From contig NZ_JPOG01000001.1 in assembly GCF_000733765.1 (NCBI RefSeq), forward strand, positions 3,730,501 to 3,794,500: a stretch of DNA of 64,000 bases, given 5' to 3'. The position numbers and the translations under genes were made by a program. Below, piece by piece: positions 1 to 39,908 of the stretch (positions are counted from its first letter, which is position 1; each line of letters opens with the position of its first letter). Origin of the DNA: Algiphilus aromaticivorans DG1253 (GTDB lineage: Bacteria; Pseudomonadota; Gammaproteobacteria; Nevskiales; Nevskiaceae). The notes under the pieces were generated by a model. That model made no database searches, had not been told where the DNA came from, and saw only the letters and a list, made by a program, of their open reading frames with translations.

Positions 1-1544
1 GCACCGGCGCCGCGCAGCATCTGCGCGCCACGCTCGATGACGGCTTCCATCTCCTCGTGCATGGCGATGGCGGCCTTGGGTTCCAGCAGCGACGCGAGGT
101 CTTCCAGCAGGCCGCGTGCCTGCTGCATGGCCTGGGTGCGCTCGCCCTTGCTAGCCCATACCCAGGCCAGGTAGGGAACCATCACCGTGCGCATCCAGGC
201 GTTGCCGCCGGCGACGAAGGTGCGGCGGGAGATGAGATATTCGATCTCGTCGCTGGCGAAGCGGCGGGCTCGCTCCAGCATGCGCTGGCTGCGCAGCCGG
301 CGGCTTTCGCCGAGGGATTCGCTGACGGCTTCCTCGTCCGGGATGCGGCGCTGCTGGTGCGCGAGGTCGCGCGGCAGGTCGACGGTATCGGCGAGGCGGG
401 AAATGACGTCCTGCAGCTCTTCGAGGATGCGCGCGGTGTGCTCGTCGCGCGTTGGCGAGGCGCCTTCGGCGACGACCTGGTCGAGCAGGCCGCGGATGCG
501 GTGGCGTGGGTCGGCGAGCAGCTCGGGCTGTGCGGCGGAGAGCCGCATCAGCGGCACCACCATCGGCTGCAGCACGTTGCGGGCCTGCTCGCGCGACGGC
601 GCCATGGAGGCGTAACCGCCCAGCATCTGGTCCAGCCGCTGGCTGTGCAGTTGAGCGAACTGCTGTGCCATCTGCACCTGCGATCCACCGAAGCCGCCCT
701 GACCGCCGCCCCATTGGCCGGGCGCGGCTGGCATGCCGGCTAGCTGCTGCGCGAACTGCTGCGTCACACCGCTCTGGCCGACGCCGAAAGGCTGGGTGTT
801 GTAGTGCGAGGCAGCCTGGGCGGCGGCCGCGGCCTGCTCCATGAAGGAGTAGGGACTTTCCTGCTCGGCGGCTTTCTCGTCCTCGTCGTCGTTGACGTCG
901 CGCGGCGCGACGACGCCGGCGGCGGTGAGGTCGCGGTCGATGAGGGCGTAGCCCGCGCTCAGCGCCGGGGTGGCACAGCGTTCGAAGAGCTTGAAGAGCA
1001 CGATCTGCATGCCCGGCTCCATCTCCAGCCGGCCGGCAGCCTCACGGAAAGTCTCCGCGACGTGCTCGGTGGACATGCGCCAGGACAGCCCGCGCTTGGG
1101 CTTCTTCTCGTGCGGGTCGGCTTCCGGGTCGATGACGGCCAGCCGCCGCAGCAGGTCACCGTGCAGCGAATCCGAATGATTGGTGACCGTGCTGATGAAG
1201 TTCTGCACGGCGCATTCCAGCTCCTGCTGCTCGTCCGATTTCAGCTCCAGCTTGAATTCGCCGACGGTGGCCTTCTGCTGCTCCTCGGGCGAGGGGGATC
1301 CGCGGTCGAAGTGCTCCAGGAAGGTCTCGACGAAGCTCTCGCGACGCAGGCGCAGCATGCGCATCAGGTCGATGCAGTCCTGCGTGGTCTTGCTCTTCAG
1401 GCTCTGCGTGTAGGCCCAGTCGAAGAGCACGTCGTCCGCTGCGCGCAATGCGCCTTCGACGGCGCTTTTCAGCTGATCACGGAAACGCGTCGAGATGCTT
1501 TCACGCAGCTCGTCGAATTCGGCTTCCGGTTTGGTTTCGCTCAT
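1..1544 (-). CDS. DUF1631 family protein, 3' end beyond the window
   Basis: An open frame runs from ATG at 1544 (N-terminus MSETKPEAEFDELRE) to the left edge with no stop, giving about 514 visible residues. The composition is that of a soluble, acidic, largely helical protein. The middle (roughly residues 200-270) is a Gln/Ala/Gly-rich low-complexity linker between two conserved helical blocks. This matches the DUF1631 family, which is common in Gammaproteobacteria and of unknown biochemical function. Family members are usually longer, so the C-terminal part is missing here only because the window ends. The 171 bases upstream, before the next gene, show no recognisable signal. Confidence 0.75.
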   Translation of the reverse strand, partial: MSETKPEAEFDELRESISTRFRDQLKSAVEGALRAADDVLFDWAYTQSLKSKTTQDCIDLMRMLRLRRESFVETFLEHFDRGSPSPEEQQKATVGEFKLELKSDEQQELECAVQNFISTVTNHSDSLHGDLLRRLAVIDPEADPHEKKPKRGLSWRMSTEHVAETFREAAGRLEMEPGMQIVLFKLFERCATPALSAGYALIDRDLTAAGVVAPRDVNDDEDEKAAEQESPYSFMEQAAAAAQAASHYNTQPFGVGQSGVTQQFAQQLAGMPAAPGQWGGGQGGFGGSQVQMAQQFAQLHSQRLDQMLGGYASMAPSREQARNVLQPMVVPLMRLSAAQPELLADPRHRIRGLLDQVVAEGASPTRDEHTARILEELQDVISRLADTVDLPRDLAHQQRRIPDEEAVSESLGESRRLRSQRMLERARRFASDEIEYLISRRTFVAGGNAWMRTVMVPYLAWVWASKGERTQAMQQARGLLEDLASLLEPKAAIAMHEEMEAVIERGAQMLRGAG

Positions 1545-1715
1545 GCGCGGGCGAATACGGGTCTAGAGATTGCGGAATGTAGCAGGGCGCAGAGCCGGAT
1601 AGAAGCGCCATTCCTGCTTACCCGAGAGAAGGCAGCAGCGGCGCGACGAACTGCGTCTTGTGACGGCGGTGCCTGCCGCGTCTCGGCGACGTCTATGCCG
1701 CATTCATCCACGGTC

Positions 1716-2843
1716 CTACAACACTGCAGTCAGGACTTCCACGACGCGGTCCAGCTGCTGCGTCGTGACGTGGCGGTGTGGCGCCACGCGCAGGGCGCCG
1801 TCGCGGATGGAGAGCACCACGCCCGCCTCGCGCAGCGCGTTGGCGGCGGCTTGCAGGTGCTCGGCGGGCGGGCGGATGGCGCAGAGATGCGGCAGATGGC
1901 CGTTCGGCATCAGCGCGCCCATGCCGGCGGCCTCCATGCGTGCGTGCAGATGCGTCGTCAGTGCGCCCAGGGCGGCTTCGACCTCGGCGATGCGCCAGTC
2001 GTGCAGCTGCTGCATGGCAGCGGTGGCGATGGGCGTGAGCAGCGGATGCGCACTGCTGCCGGCGTCGAAACGCGCCGCGCCGGGGCGATAGGGCGGCAGG
2101 CGCTGGGCGATGGCGTTGAAGTCGCCGCGCAGCTCGCGCGCCAGCCAGGTCTGCTCGATGGGCTCGCCCTGCGCGCGCCAGCGCGGCGCGGCCCACAACC
2201 AGCCCAGGCCGTGGGCGCCGAGCAGCCACTTGTGGCCGACGCAGACGACGAAATCGGCGCCCAGTGCGTCCAGATCCATGCTGACGGCACCCAGTGCCTG
2301 GCTGGCGTCGACCACCAGCGCCGCGCCCTGGGCGTGTGCGCGCTCGCGGATGGCGAAGAGATCCAGTGGCGCGCCGTCGCACCAGAAGCAGGGCGGGGCG
2401 CTGACGACCTTGGTATGTGGATCGATGCCGCGCAGCACGGCGTCGGTCCAGCTTTCTCCGGCTTCGGGGCGGACCTCGATGCAGCGCGCCCCAGTGGCCT
2501 CGGCCGCCACCTGCCAGACGCTGCGGTTGGAAGGGTATTCGCCGGCAAGTAGCACCACCGTATCGCCTTCGGCGAGCGGCAGATTGCGCGCCGCCACGGC
2601 CATGCCGTAGCTCGCCGAGGGCACGTAGGCCAGCGCTTCGGCCTCGGTGCCGAAGGTGGCAGCGGCCAGCTCGCGCAGATGCTCCACGGCGCCGAACCAG
2701 TCGGCCATGTCGCCCTCCCAGGGACGCGCGCTCGACGCTAGGGCGCTGCGCGCGGCGTCGTTGACCGCGTGCAGACGCGCACCCTGTCCGGCGCTGTTGA
2801 GGTAGATGAGGTTGTCGGGCAGGTCGAAGATGTTTTCGGACAT
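1716..2843 (-). CDS. PLP-dependent class V aminotransferase-fold enzyme, EgtE candidate
   Basis: A 375-residue protein starting MSENIFDLPDN. The open frame extends 49 codons upstream, but that extension lacks family character. The fold-type I PLP site is visible: the motif GHKWLLGAHGLG supplies the Schiff-base lysine, and an upstream DASQALGAV block supplies the Asp that contacts the pyridine nitrogen. The family includes cysteine desulfurases, kynureninase-like enzymes and the ergothioneine C-S lyase EgtE. The gene is divergent from egtB with 106 bases between the start codons. I therefore infer that it may cleave the hercynylcysteine sulfoxide made by EgtB, releasing ergothioneine. Sequence alone cannot separate EgtE from other class V lyases or aminotransferases. 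Confidence 0.7.
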   Translation of the reverse strand: MSENIFDLPDNLIYLNSAGQGARLHAVNDAARSALASSARPWEGDMADWFGAVEHLRELAAATFGTEAEALAYVPSASYGMAVAARNLPLAEGDTVVLLAGEYPSNRSVWQVAAEATGARCIEVRPEAGESWTDAVLRGIDPHTKVVSAPPCFWCDGAPLDLFAIRERAHAQGAALVVDASQALGAVSMDLDALGADFVVCVGHKWLLGAHGLGWLWAAPRWRAQGEPIEQTWLARELRGDFNAIAQRLPPYRPGAARFDAGSSAHPLLTPIATAAMQQLHDWRIAEVEAALGALTTHLHARMEAAGMGALMPNGHLPHLCAIRPPAEHLQAAANALREAGVVLSIRDGALRVAPHRHVTTQQLDRVVEVLTAVL

Positions 2844-34259: not shown

Positions 34260-35587
34260 AGGGTGATAACGCTGGGCGCTTCAACAGGACACCGGGCGCG
34301 CCGTTGCGCGCGTCGGCCGCGCGCGTGCTGCACGCCGTCACCGGCCAGGGCAAGAGCCTCGACGATGCGCTGGCCTTCGCCGAGGCGCGCAACCGTTTCG
34401 ACGCGCGCGACAGCGCGCTGCTGGCCGCCATCGTCTACGGGACACTGCGCAACTGGCGTCGCCTCGGCGTGCAGGCCGAGGCGATGATGACGCGTCCGCT
34501 GCACGAAGCGCCGATGGTCGATGCGCTGCTGCGCGCTGGTCTCTTTCAGATGCTGGACATGCGCGTGCCCGACCACGCCGTGGTCTCGGCCACGGCCGGG
34601 GCGGCGCAGTTGCTCGACGCCGAATGGGCGGCGCCGCTGATCAATGCGCTGCTGCGCCGTGCCCAGCGTGAGCCCGAGGGCCTGATTGTGCCCGAGGATG
34701 CGGCCGTGCAGCACTCCTGGCCGGACTGGCTGGCGGCGCGGCTGCGCGCCGACTGGGGCGAGGCCGCCGAGGCTCTGATGGCCTCGGGCAACGCGCAGGC
34801 GCCGATGACGCTGCGCGTCAACCGGCGGCGCATGGCCGCCTCGGATTATCGTGCGCGTTTGCAGCGAACGGGACAGGAGGCTCGGCTGCTGGAGGGCGTG
34901 CCGGAAGCGCTGGTGCTGGAGCAAGCCTGTGAGGTGGAGGCGCTACCCGGCTTCGCGCGCGGCAGCGTTTCGGTGCAGGACGCCAGCGCGCAGCTCGCCG
35001 CCGGCCTGCTCGATGTGCATCCCGGCCAGCGCGTGCTGGATGCCTGCAGCGCACCGGGCGGCAAGGCGGCACATATCCTGGAGCGCTGCCCGGACGCCGA
35101 ACTGGTCGCGCTGGACAGCGACCGCCGGCGCATCCGCACGGTGGACGCCACGCTGCAGCGCGTCGGCCTGAAGGCGACGCTGGCTGCTGCCGACGCCACT
35201 GATACCGCGCGCTGGTGGGAAGGCGAGCCCTTCGACCGGATCCTGATCGACGCGCCCTGCTCGGGCACGGGCGTGGCGCGGCGCCACCCCGACATCAAGT
35301 GGCTGCGACGAGAGAGCGACATCACGGCGCTGGCGGCCACGCAGCGCGCGCTGCTGGATGCGCTGTGGCCGCTGCTGGCACCGGGCGGGCGGCTGGTCTT
35401 CGCCACCTGCTCGTTGCTGCGCGCCGAAGGTTCGGAGCTCGTCCGCGCCTTCGCCGAAGCGCAGTCCGTCGAGGACGTCACGCCCGATCTGCCCGTGGGC
35501 GAGCGCGAGCCGGTGGGTTGGCGCATCCCGGCCGGCGGTGACTGGGACGGCTTCTACTACGCTGTACTGGAACACTCTCCGAGCTGA
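34256..35587 (+). CDS. rsmB: 16S rRNA (cytosine-967-C5)-methyltransferase RsmB
   Basis: 443 residues. The N-terminal NusB-like RNA-binding domain spans about residues 15-140 (RASAARVLHAV, LLRAGLFQMLDM). The SAM-dependent methyltransferase domain shows DACSAPGGKAAHILE, IDAPCSGTGV (first catalytic Cys) and FATCSLLRAEGS (second Cys). It ends with the family block GFYYAVLEH. Third gene of def-fmt-rsmB, coupled by ATGA. The 201 bases after the stop hold no gene. Confidence 0.96.
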   Translation: MKGDNAGRFNRTPGAPLRASAARVLHAVTGQGKSLDDALAFAEARNRFDARDSALLAAIVYGTLRNWRRLGVQAEAMMTRPLHEAPMVDALLRAGLFQMLDMRVPDHAVVSATAGAAQLLDAEWAAPLINALLRRAQREPEGLIVPEDAAVQHSWPDWLAARLRADWGEAAEALMASGNAQAPMTLRVNRRRMAASDYRARLQRTGQEARLLEGVPEALVLEQACEVEALPGFARGSVSVQDASAQLAAGLLDVHPGQRVLDACSAPGGKAAHILERCPDAELVALDSDRRRIRTVDATLQRVGLKATLAAADATDTARWWEGEPFDRILIDAPCSGTGVARRHPDIKWLRRESDITALAATQRALLDALWPLLAPGGRLVFATCSLLRAEGSELVRAFAEAQSVEDVTPDLPVGEREPVGWRIPAGGDWDGFYYAVLEHSPS

Positions 35588-35788
35588 TCCGGGTTGCTGC
35601 GGCGTGCCGTTCGTCCGCTGGTTTGCGCCGTCAGGTCTGTGGCGTGTGGCGTGTGCGAGACGGGACGCTAGCGTGCCGTGACACGCTGGCGAACGGTGCG
35701 CCTGCGTCCCCGGCCGGCAAGCAGCGCGTTGCACGCGCATCTGTGAGCGCTGCCACTGGCGGAACACCGGATTGTGAGGGCGCGCGGT

Positions 35789-37283
35789 ATGGAAAGCCTG
35801 AGATCGCTGTTCAGTACCTACGGTCTGACACCGCACGGCTTCTGCTACGCGTGGCAGCCCGAGTTGCTGTGGCCGATGGTCATCGCATCCGGCACGGTCG
35901 CCGCCGCCTATTTCTCGATCCCGTTGGCGCTGCTGGCGCTGCTGCGCCGCCTGCCGGCCATCCGCTACCGCGGCGTATTCCTGCTGTTCTCGGCCTTCAT
36001 CTTCTTCTGCGGCCTGACGCATGTTGTCAGCGTCATCAATATATGGGTGCCCATTTATCGTTTCGAAGTGGTCGTGATGGTTTTGACAGCGGCGGTGTCG
36101 GTGGCAACGGCCGTTATGCTCTGGCCGCTGTTGCCGCGCGTGGTGGGCTTCATCGAGAACGAGGCGGCCGTGCGTGCGCGCTTGGAGGCCAGCAATGCCG
36201 AGCTCAATCGCGCGCTGGAGGCGTTGTCCGAGCGCAATCGCACCCTTGACGAGCGCAGCCGGCAGGACGCTGCCCTCGGCAGGCTGGAGCGCACGCTGCA
36301 GGGCTGCGTCAGCGTCTACGAGATGCGTGCGCCGGTGCAGGAGGCGGTCCGCGCCCTGCTACCGGGTGTCGAAGGGTCGATCTACGCTTACAACGGTTCG
36401 ACGCACTATCTGGAGCGGATCGCGGAGTGGGGTGAGGATGCTGAAGCTGCCGACATCATCGCGCCCGATGAATGCTGGTCCCTGCGTCAGGGGCAACCCT
36501 TTGCCAGCGAATTGACCGACTCGGCTGCGCTGCCCGCATGTCGGCGAGTCCCGCCAGGGCACCGCGCTCTGCCTGCCCATGAGCGCCGGCGGTGAGGTGC
36601 TGGGCTTCCTGCATCTGTGCTGCCAGCACGATCCCGCCGATTACAGCGAGGCTGAGCGCGAGGCGCGGCGCCGCCTGGGGGCGGAGCTTGCTGAGCGCAT
36701 CAGTATCAATCTGGCAAATATCCGTCTGCGCGAGCGGCTGCGCGGCCAGTCCGTGCGCGACCCGCTGACCGGTCTCTTCAACAGGCGCTATCTGGAGGAA
36801 ACGCTGCAGCGCGAGCTCAAGCGCGCCGAGCGCGCCGGGCGCGCCTTCGCGCTGATGGTCATCGATATCGATCACTTCAAGACGCTGAACGACACCGCCG
36901 GGCATGCCCTGGGCGATGAGGTGCTGCGGCAGATCGCTGTCGTGCTCCGCGAGAACTGTCGCGGCAGCGATGTCGCTTGCCGTTTCGGTGGCGACGAGTT
37001 CGTCGTCGCGCTCTTTGATATCACGCCCGAGCAGGTGAAGGGACGCGCCGAGTCGATTCGCGACTTGGCCGGCCGCATCCGCGCGCCCGGACCACTGCGG
37101 GGCGATACCCTGTCGATCTCGGTCGGTATCGCACTCTATCCCGACGACGGCAGTGTCGAGGAAGAGTTGCTGGGTGCAGCGGATCGCGCCCTTTACCGGG
37201 CGAAGCTCGCCGGCCGCAATTGCATCTGTGTCGGTGGTGGCGAAGACCCCGACGCGCGACCTCGGCTCAAGGTTCTGGCTTGA
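35789..37283 (+). pseudogene. Diguanylate cyclase with ethylene-receptor-like membrane sensor, interrupted by a frameshift
   Basis: Frame one (35789-36595) encodes a three-helix membrane domain very like the ethylene-binding region of plant ETR1 and related bacterial kinases: PHGFCYAWQPELLW, AAAYFSIPLAL, FIFFCGLTHVV. Cys74 and His78 match ETR1 Cys65 and His69 (Cu(I) ligands), but the ETR1 Asp25 position is Ser34. A coiled coil and GAF domain follow. At 36530 the GAF sequence continues in the +1 frame (CPHVGESRQGTALCLPM) and reads through LHLC to a full GGDEF domain (RFGGDEFVV), with an intact RGSD inhibitory site five residues before it. One extra C near 36530 explains the break. It may be a true mutation or a sequencing error; without it the protein would be about 497 residues. 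Confidence 0.8.
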
Positions 37284-38611: not shown

Positions 38612-38854
38612 TCAGCGCTGCGCCTTGTGGCCGCCGAGACCGAGGCGGCGGCGGATGAGGCCGGCGGCCACGGGCAGCGGCGCGCGCTCGCGCGTCGGGC
38701 GGGGCACGAGCTGCCCGGCGCAGTTCGGGCAGACTTGGTCCATGGCGGCCGCGCAGTCGGGGCAGAAGGTGCACTCGAAGGAGCAGATGCGGGTGGCGTC
38801 GCGCCAGCCCAGGGCGGTTTCGCAGCGCTGGCAGGTGCGTTTCATCTTGAGCAT
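38612..38854 (-). CDS. DUF1272 cysteine-rich small protein
   Basis: 80 residues. Eight cysteines in paired knuckles (KRTCQRCETAL, ICSFECTFCPDCAA, VCPNCAGQLVPRP) define the DUF1272 family, likely a zinc-ribbon protein. The C-terminal 30 residues are basic. Function unknown. It lies between the small membrane protein gene upstream and the hydrolase gene downstream on the same strand, with short gaps, so an operon is likely. Confidence 0.88.
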   Translation of the reverse strand: MLKMKRTCQRCETALGWRDATRICSFECTFCPDCAAAMDQVCPNCAGQLVPRPTRERAPLPVAAGLIRRRLGLGGHKAQR

Positions 38855-38865
38855 CGTGATTCTCC

Positions 38866-39249
38866 TCAGGCCGAAGGAAGGCTGTCGAGCGCGTAGAGCG
38901 CGAAGGCGGCCGCGAGCAGTGCGAGGCCGAGAAGGTCGGCGCGCACGATGCGTGCGATCGCCTCGCCGTGAGCGCCGCCGGTGGCGGCAAGCAGCAGGAA
39001 GCCGCCCATCGACACCAGGGCCGCGATGAAGGCGAGTGGTTGCAGCTGTGGCCGGAAGGCTGCCAGCACGACGAAGCTGCCGAGCAGCGCGAACAGCAGC
39101 GCACGGTGGCGCAGCAGCAGGAGCTCCGGCGCCTCCGGCGCGATGCCGTAGAGCGTGCGCAGCCGCTCCGTTGCGAGTACGCCCACCGCGGGGATCAGGT
39201 TGATCATTCCGACCAGCATCAGCAGGCCGCTCACCGCGTAGCCAATCAT
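38866..39249 (-). CDS. Conserved small integral membrane protein
   Basis: 127 residues from MIGYAVSGLLML; AAGGAGACGCA before 39249 decides this start. Four hydrophobic helices with charged turns: GMINLIPAVGVLATERLRTLYGI, then LLRHRALLFALLGSFVVLAAF. Homologues in Pseudomonas and related genera are annotated inconsistently, and no activity is established. It lies 11 bases upstream of the DUF1272 gene. Confidence 0.75.
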   Translation of the reverse strand: MIGYAVSGLLMLVGMINLIPAVGVLATERLRTLYGIAPEAPELLLLRHRALLFALLGSFVVLAAFRPQLQPLAFIAALVSMGGFLLLAATGGAHGEAIARIVRADLLGLALLAAAFALYALDSLPSA

Positions 39250-39278
39250 TGCGTCTCCTTGCAATGCGCCTCGGTCGG

Positions 39279-39908
39279 TCAGCCTGCCTCCGGCGGCGCC
39301 GGCCCGCCTTGATATTTCTCAAGATCGGCCTTCACGCGGCTCAGCGACTCCGGGGTGATGCCCAGATAGGAAGCCACCTGATAGGCCGGCGTGCCGGCGA
39401 TGATCTCCGGCTCCATGTGCGCGAGGAAGAAGGCGTAGCGCTGGGCGGCGCTGCGCGACTGCAGCATGCGCAGTCGGCGTTGCAGCGCTAGAAAGTGACG
39501 CTCCGCCAGCTTGCGCTGCATGGTTTCGGCGAGCAGGCCCGGCTGCTCGCGGCAGAAGGCGCGGAAGCGCACGCGATAGCCTTCCACGGCCGTCATGGCC
39601 TGCAGGCTCTCGTCGGCCGGCGTCTGTGTCAGATAGCTGTTGTAGGGCATGGCGGCCGCCGGTGCCGACAGCAGACGCAGATTCACTTCGCGGTCGTCGT
39701 GCAGGTAGTAGCTGCGCACCAGCCCGTCGCGGAGCAGCACCAGCTCGTCGACGGTGTCGCCGATCTGGAAGAAATGCTCGCCGCGCTCGTAGCGGCACGG
39801 CCGCAGGTGGCGCAACAGCGGCGCCGCAACCTGCTCGTCCACAGCCACCCACTGACCGAGATAGGCCGCCAGCTGCGCGGCAGTGGGTTGCGCGGTGGTT
39901 GTGTTCAT
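39279..39908 (-). CDS. Crp/Fnr-family transcriptional regulator
   Basis: 209 residues. A cyclic-nucleotide-binding-like beta-roll occupies residues 20-130 (RYERGEHFFQIGDTVDELVLLRDGLVRSYYL, quoted in parts: GEHFFQIGDTVDE and LVLLRDGLVRSYY). The dimer helix follows, then a C-terminal winged HTH ending YQVASYLGITPESLSRVKADLE. The PxGExR ribose-binding signature of CRP is absent and there is no N-terminal Cys cluster, so neither cAMP nor iron-sulfur sensing is indicated. It reads toward the small membrane protein genes and may control them. Confidence 0.85.
   Translation of the reverse strand: MNTTTAQPTAAQLAAYLGQWVAVDEQVAAPLLRHLRPCRYERGEHFFQIGDTVDELVLLRDGLVRSYYLHDDREVNLRLLSAPAAAMPYNSYLTQTPADESLQAMTAVEGYRVRFRAFCREQPGLLAETMQRKLAERHFLALQRRLRMLQSRSAAQRYAFFLAHMEPEIIAGTPAYQVASYLGITPESLSRVKADLEKYQGGPAPPEAG

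Follow-up and report, generated by a model that had tools for sequence, protein, structure and literature searches.

What does the sensor gene downstream of rsmB encode in the window, as we call the whole 64,000-nucleotide stretch of Algiphilus DNA analysed here, and is it one gene or two? Between 35789 and 37283, an ETR1_N membrane domain, a GAF region and a GGDEF domain are distributed over two overlapping ORFs, and serine occupies the position of Asp25 of the plant ethylene receptor ETR1. As argued below, the locus probably represents a single gene for a membrane-bound ETR1_N-linker-GAF-GGDEF sensor diguanylate cyclase, either as a remnant or as a copy read with an error. Its product would sense a gas at a copper site and drive c-di-GMP, having a lowered ethylene affinity or another ligand, and the gene appears to be broken in this genome. 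The lesion itself is minor, and the family pattern around the serine is the more interesting part.

Two reading frames downstream of rsmB

The features of the locus are collected in Table 1. ORF A comprises 268 aa when counted from its ATG (an alternative GTG start lies at 35774) and begins 202 bases 3' of rsmB on the same strand, while ORF B comprises 234 aa in the +1 frame relative to ORF A.

Table 1. Features of the sensor locus, with positions counted along the window.
Feature	Positions	Strand	Evidence or remark
rsmB, 16S rRNA methyltransferase	34262..35584	+	Pfam 4.9e-50; upstream neighbour common to both Algiphilus genomes
ORF A: membrane sensor with ETR1_N (three predicted helices), coiled linker, GAF front and out-of-frame end	35789..36595	+	ETR1_N 3e-29
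ETR1_N domain, residues 26-119	35864..36145	+	Pfam domain limits
Site of the net +1 frame change	36527..36540	+	Codon scan, piecewise alignment to L012, sequence
ORF B: GAF rear, then the whole diguanylate cyclase domain with its RGSD and GGDEF motifs	36579..37283	+	Pfam; TIGR00254 3.8e-50

A preliminary description of this DNA had recognized an ETR1-like membrane domain followed by a diguanylate cyclase with intact GGDEF and RxxD sites, and the profile searches bore this out. Residues 26-119 of ORF A matched Pfam ETR1_N (PF25487) well over its threshold (3e-29; 101.6 bits, cut-off 27), and a charged linker follows this domain. In the frame of ORF B, the rear part of the GAF region lies directly before the GGDEF domain and gave a weak Pfam match below the cut-off (1.8e-4, 22.1 bits against 28.6), and the GGDEF domain itself matched PF00990 at 1e-46. 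The active-site motif is intact (RFGGDEF), and RGSD is placed five residues N-terminal to GGDEF, which we take to be the usual spacing of the inhibitory site. A structure model built from a two-sequence input gave long helices at residues 24-54, 61-86 and 90-131 with low confidence (pLDDT 67.8, pTM 0.45), and a sequence search of the PDB returned no relative. A scan for promoters and terminators was uninformative: its two hits were a promoter-like site on the opposite (minus) strand and a terminator-like site inside the GGDEF region.

The frame changes once, by a net +1, near 36530 inside the GAF region. The preliminary description had placed it there and had called both sides well conserved; both statements hold. 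A codon-usage scan put the switch at 36532, with coding-like stretches of 788 and 724 bases on its two sides. As the same scan flags many ordinary gene overlaps of the window as well, it locates the switch but neither proves a lesion nor provides a usable error rate. Alignment of ORF A and ORF B to the relative described below (L012) put the switch in the same codons. Runs of equal bases at the join do not exceed three. No second stop or other decay was found in either half.

The gene in a second Algiphilus genome

A GTDB-based contig scan returned one relative, and a search of viral contigs returned none. The relative belongs to the same genus, Algiphilus in Nevskiales, and comes from the metagenome-assembled genome Algiphilus sp. 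HH_bin9. There the gene is a single open frame of 493 aa (L012, on JALEHA010000050.1), cut short where the contig stops, in which ETR1_N, GAF and GGDEF all exceed their Pfam cut-offs. Its missing front was found at the end of another contig (L010 and L011), after an rsmB gene whose product is 73.5% identical to that of the window over 427 aa. Because the same 31 residues occur at both contig ends, the two parts were taken as one gene. Downstream, an alpha/beta hydrolase lies on the opposite strand after the sensor gene (by Pfam in the window, by eye in L012), and the window has one extra small ORF in between compared with L012. Farther downstream, the minus strand of the window at 38612-39908 holds genes for a small protein rich in Cys, for a membrane protein and for a regulator of the cNMP-binding type (Pfam 3.8e-7); inspection by eye showed this order in L012 too.

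When aligned to this one continuous frame, ORF A and ORF B cover successive stretches of it, and the two-ORF pattern is thus not due to chance. The unbroken gene in the nearest relative, with the same rsmB alongside, rules out the two-frame form as the ancestral one; in this relative at least, the homologue does not share that form as separate genes. Across the two genomes, the ETR1_N-GAF-GGDEF fusion therefore appears to be old in the genus and the split private to the window genome. Identity between the two proteins was 71/99 in the membrane domain, 44/124 in the linker and front of the GAF region, 35/71 in the rear of the GAF region and 98/172 in the GGDEF domain. Being the best conserved part between the two Algiphilus species, the membrane domain points to a sensor under constraint. 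The HH_bin9 protein shares with that of the window the domain order, the upstream rsmB and a methionine at the position of ETR1 Lys91; it differs in being unbroken and in carrying Glu instead of Ser at position 25.

The conservation, together with the lack of a second lesion, fits either selection until very recently or a sequence error. A sequencing or assembly error, behind which the real gene would be intact and work as in the second genome, is a serious possibility that falls a little short of an even chance: both halves are coding-like and well conserved against a relative that is itself unbroken, although no homopolymer longer than three is found at the join. The same facts would suit a recent loss, in which a true frame change killed the sensor in this strain. 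That 13 of the 58 genomes of the host family gave no ETR1_N match at all indicates that the sensor is dispensable in some of them. Against a loss stand the absence of any further stop or decay in either half and the intact state of the six other binding residues, of GGDEF and of RxxD. We consider such a loss about as likely as an error.

In four loci of distant relatives (L163, L166, L169 and L184), an ETR1_N-only ORF of 142-195 aa is immediately followed, or overlapped, by a histidine-kinase ORF on the same strand; these are either split receptors encoded as two genes or frame errors of draft genomes. In another locus (L065, ORF 1420-2028, plus strand) a 203 aa ETR1_N-only protein is encoded with a GGDEF protein on the opposite strand alongside.

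The binding site and its variation in the family

Alignment to ETR1 gave Ser34, Tyr41, Ile44, Pro45, Ile71, Cys74, His78 and Met97 as the site residues of the window sensor (L070). Cys74 and His78 are the equivalents of the ETR1 Cu(I) ligands Cys65 and His69, Ser34 stands at the position of Asp25 and Met97 at that of Lys91. The earlier statement that Cys74, His78 and the YFSIP motif are kept while Ser34 replaces Asp25 is thus correct, and six of the seven ethylene-binding residues are retained, Ser34 being the exception. Compared with ETR1 and SynEtr1, the plant and cyanobacterial receptors, the window sensor shares the ETR1_N domain, predicted to have three helices, the Cys and His copper ligands and the Tyr, Ile, Pro and Ile residues. 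It differs in having Ser for Asp25, Met for Lys91, a GGDEF domain in place of the histidine kinase, and a split gene. AzoEtr1 of Azospirillum brasilense is likewise a bacterial ETR1_N membrane sensor. According to the source, ethylene affects biofilm in that organism and AzoEtr1, unlike the window protein, keeps all seven residues including Asp35, as well as Lys98, and carries PAS and histidine kinase domains; its expression in Pichia is described there as well (PMC11819568).

How much a change at Asp25 matters is judged differently in the literature. One source reports that mutation of Asp25 or Cys65 eliminates binding in ETR1 and describes a predicted polar bond between Asp25 and Lys91 (PMC11819568). 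A 2026 review states that the receptor with Asn in place of Asp still works at an about 100-fold lower affinity, and that natural variants at Asp25 exist; it describes the arrangement and fold of the membrane domain as disputed and the role of Asp25-Lys91 in affinity and signalling as open (PMC13012798). The copper site has been given as Asp25, Cys65 and His69 (PMC12643061), and simulations found the contact of Asp25 with copper to be infrequent (PMC6586836). The "essential" role ascribed to Asp25 in the preliminary description is hence upheld by the first of these papers and contradicted by the second. Natural variants at Asp25 are not new. Azhar 2023 and Wang 2006 reportedly describe such variants. 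Our searches of the open-access literature found neither an ETR1_N-GGDEF fusion nor a paired change at 25 and 91 described.

Genome searches supplied 207 distinct ETR1_N proteins for an alignment to ETR1; they are not a random sample. Matches came from 45 of 58 genomes of the host family, 16 of 369 in a sample of the host class (12 over the cut-off), 29 of 398 in a sample of the host phylum (28 over the cut-off), 27 of 385 from the class of genome G452, and 102 of 201 and 74 of 151 in two overlapping sets from the order of genomes G306 and G193. From the latter order 72 longer regions were added: 60 were about every second match, picked blind to the residues, and 12 more came in addition. One protein was kept per identical 70-residue stretch, and three pairs still share the same domain middle. 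ETR1_N was very common in that order, with up to six matches per genome, as against its rarity in the wider class sample. Output classes were assigned with custom profiles, and 16 proteins, six of them of GGDEF type, were checked by Pfam. Unclassed proteins numbered 24 of 207, ten of them since the locus ends within the frame; some are kinases by Pfam (L098 and L099).

Among the 183 classed proteins, 121 are of the histidine kinase type and 62 of the GGDEF type (30 with GGDEF, 32 with GGDEF and EAL). The window protein, being split, was left outside the 62 and adds one more Ser. The GGDEF output, presented earlier as a departure from the usual histidine kinase, is thus confirmed here and is nevertheless not rare in the family. 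Asp25 was found in 115 of the 121 kinase types, with another residue in five (two Glu, one Gln, one Asn, one Gly) and a gap in one; three kinase-type proteins (L246, L247 and L249) that keep Asp25 have Tyr at position 35 and Asn at 91. Only 34 of the 62 GGDEF types have Asp25, the other 28 carrying His (12), Asn (12), Ser (3) or Glu (1). Lys or Arg at position 91 accompanies Asp25 nearly always (110/115 in kinase and 33/34 in cyclase proteins), yet it is found in only 4 of the 28 cyclase proteins without Asp25 and absent from 24. Hence the substitution by Ser34 is real, whereas its supposed peculiarity does not stand. Of the 62 cyclase proteins, 59 keep Cys65 and His69; among the 28 lacking Asp25, 25 do so. 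In 23 of these 28 the six other binding residues are all retained, a finding that speaks against simple decay. Where the copper ligands are retained, positions 25 and 91 carry the pairs Asp-Lys/Arg, Ser-Lys, Asn-Arg, His-Leu/Met, Asn-Met/Leu, Asn-Glu/Asp, Ser-Met and Glu-Met. We rejected Ser34 as a private change of a dying gene, given Glu in the orthologue, Asn in the next relatives and a membrane domain better conserved than the other parts.

Could the window protein still be an ordinary ethylene receptor, with its normal ligand and a harmless substitution? Six of the seven binding residues are kept, and the Asp to Asn form of ETR1 signals; the same review, however, puts the cost of Asn at about 100-fold in affinity (PMC13012798), and the window sensor has Ser with Met in place of the partner Lys91. 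We consider this reading rather unlikely.

Covariation of positions 25 and 91

In the 191 proteins with both copper ligands, the 25-91 pair had the highest corrected mutual information of 7260 pairs (z 8.4). It ranked second of 7140 within the cyclase subset and only 20th of 7626 among the histidine kinase and unclassed proteins. The further high-ranking pairs 20-88, 21-88, 29-70 and 33-67 would fit a helix 1 that runs along helix 3 and against helix 2. For tests on a tree, 171 rows were used, 36 having been dropped (without Cys65 or His69, with a gap, or unclassed) and the window row kept; the tree was made from about 100 columns and has weak branch support. A Pagel-type model preferred dependent change at 25 and 91 (likelihood ratio 36.6, nominal p 2e-7). 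On the well-supported branches only five independent pairs differ at position 25, and the class of position 91 is unchanged in four of the five, so changes at the two positions were often separate steps. With moderate confidence, these sequence comparisons point to a link between 25 and 91.

The contrast was sharpest within the host family: on this tree, window included, Asp25 is absent from 20 of 26 cyclase types versus 1 of 21 kinase types. The window protein falls in a clade of four with the pairs Ser-Met, Glu-Met and two Asn-Met (support 84). In family f169 Asp25 is absent from 6 of 25 cyclase types, which carry Asn-Glu, Asn-Asp or His-Leu and form a clade apart from those of the host family. 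The output type and the loss of Asp25 were not significantly related on the tree (likelihood ratio 7.75, p 0.10, one supported pair), nor were the output type and position 91 (p 0.21). Cyclase output was therefore dropped as the driver of Asp25 loss; the two appear linked by a raw association only, which the tree does not separate from shared ancestry.

A possible mechanism and its meaning

In the intact form of the single sensor cyclase that we favour, two subunits, each with three predicted helices, would dimerize and coordinate Cu(I) through Cys74 and His78, where a small gas, or Cu(I) itself, may bind. The resulting movement would pass through the linker and the GAF region to the GGDEF dimer and set its activity, and so the c-di-GMP level. 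Since the neutral Ser34-Met97 takes the place of a charged pair, the ethylene affinity is expected to be well below that of ETR1, or the ligand to be another one. The GGDEF and RxxD motifs are intact as in other membrane-sensor diguanylate cyclases (GGDEF, TIGR00254). The window protein has ETR1_N in place of a MASE, CHASE or PAS sensor.

As the two ORFs need a frame change to give one protein, sensor and cyclase would be uncoupled in this genome. Two expressed fragments, with ORF B translationally coupled to ORF A, or a programmed frameshift are improbable explanations: the ATG of ORF B lies within the end of ORF A, and this 17-base overlap would allow termination-reinitiation, but the nearest relative has no such arrangement and no clear ribosome site is seen by eye before that ATG. 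The broken sensor cyclase would accordingly be either a recently dead gene or, in the event of an assembly error, an intact one; in the first case ORF B may still be made, by re-initiation at its internal ATG, and act as a cyclase without regulation.

Tentatively, the cyclase-linked ETR1_N proteins without Asp25-Lys91 may form a separate class of Cu(I) sensors and not be ethylene receptors. With His25 as a third ligand beside Cys65 and His69 (12 of the 28), such domains could hold Cu(I), sense CO, a different unsaturated gas or copper itself, and pass the signal to c-di-GMP; within this class the Algiphilus proteins, with Ser or Glu and Met91, would form one branch.

The bacterial ETR1_N family thus offers a natural mutagenesis series for the 25-91 pair, and its natural pair variation provides independent support for a 25-91 contact. 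The cyclase-linked proteins are a ready set with a soluble read-out, c-di-GMP. Should their ligand be a changed one, c-di-GMP would have a second input, from a gas or from copper, that is still to be found.
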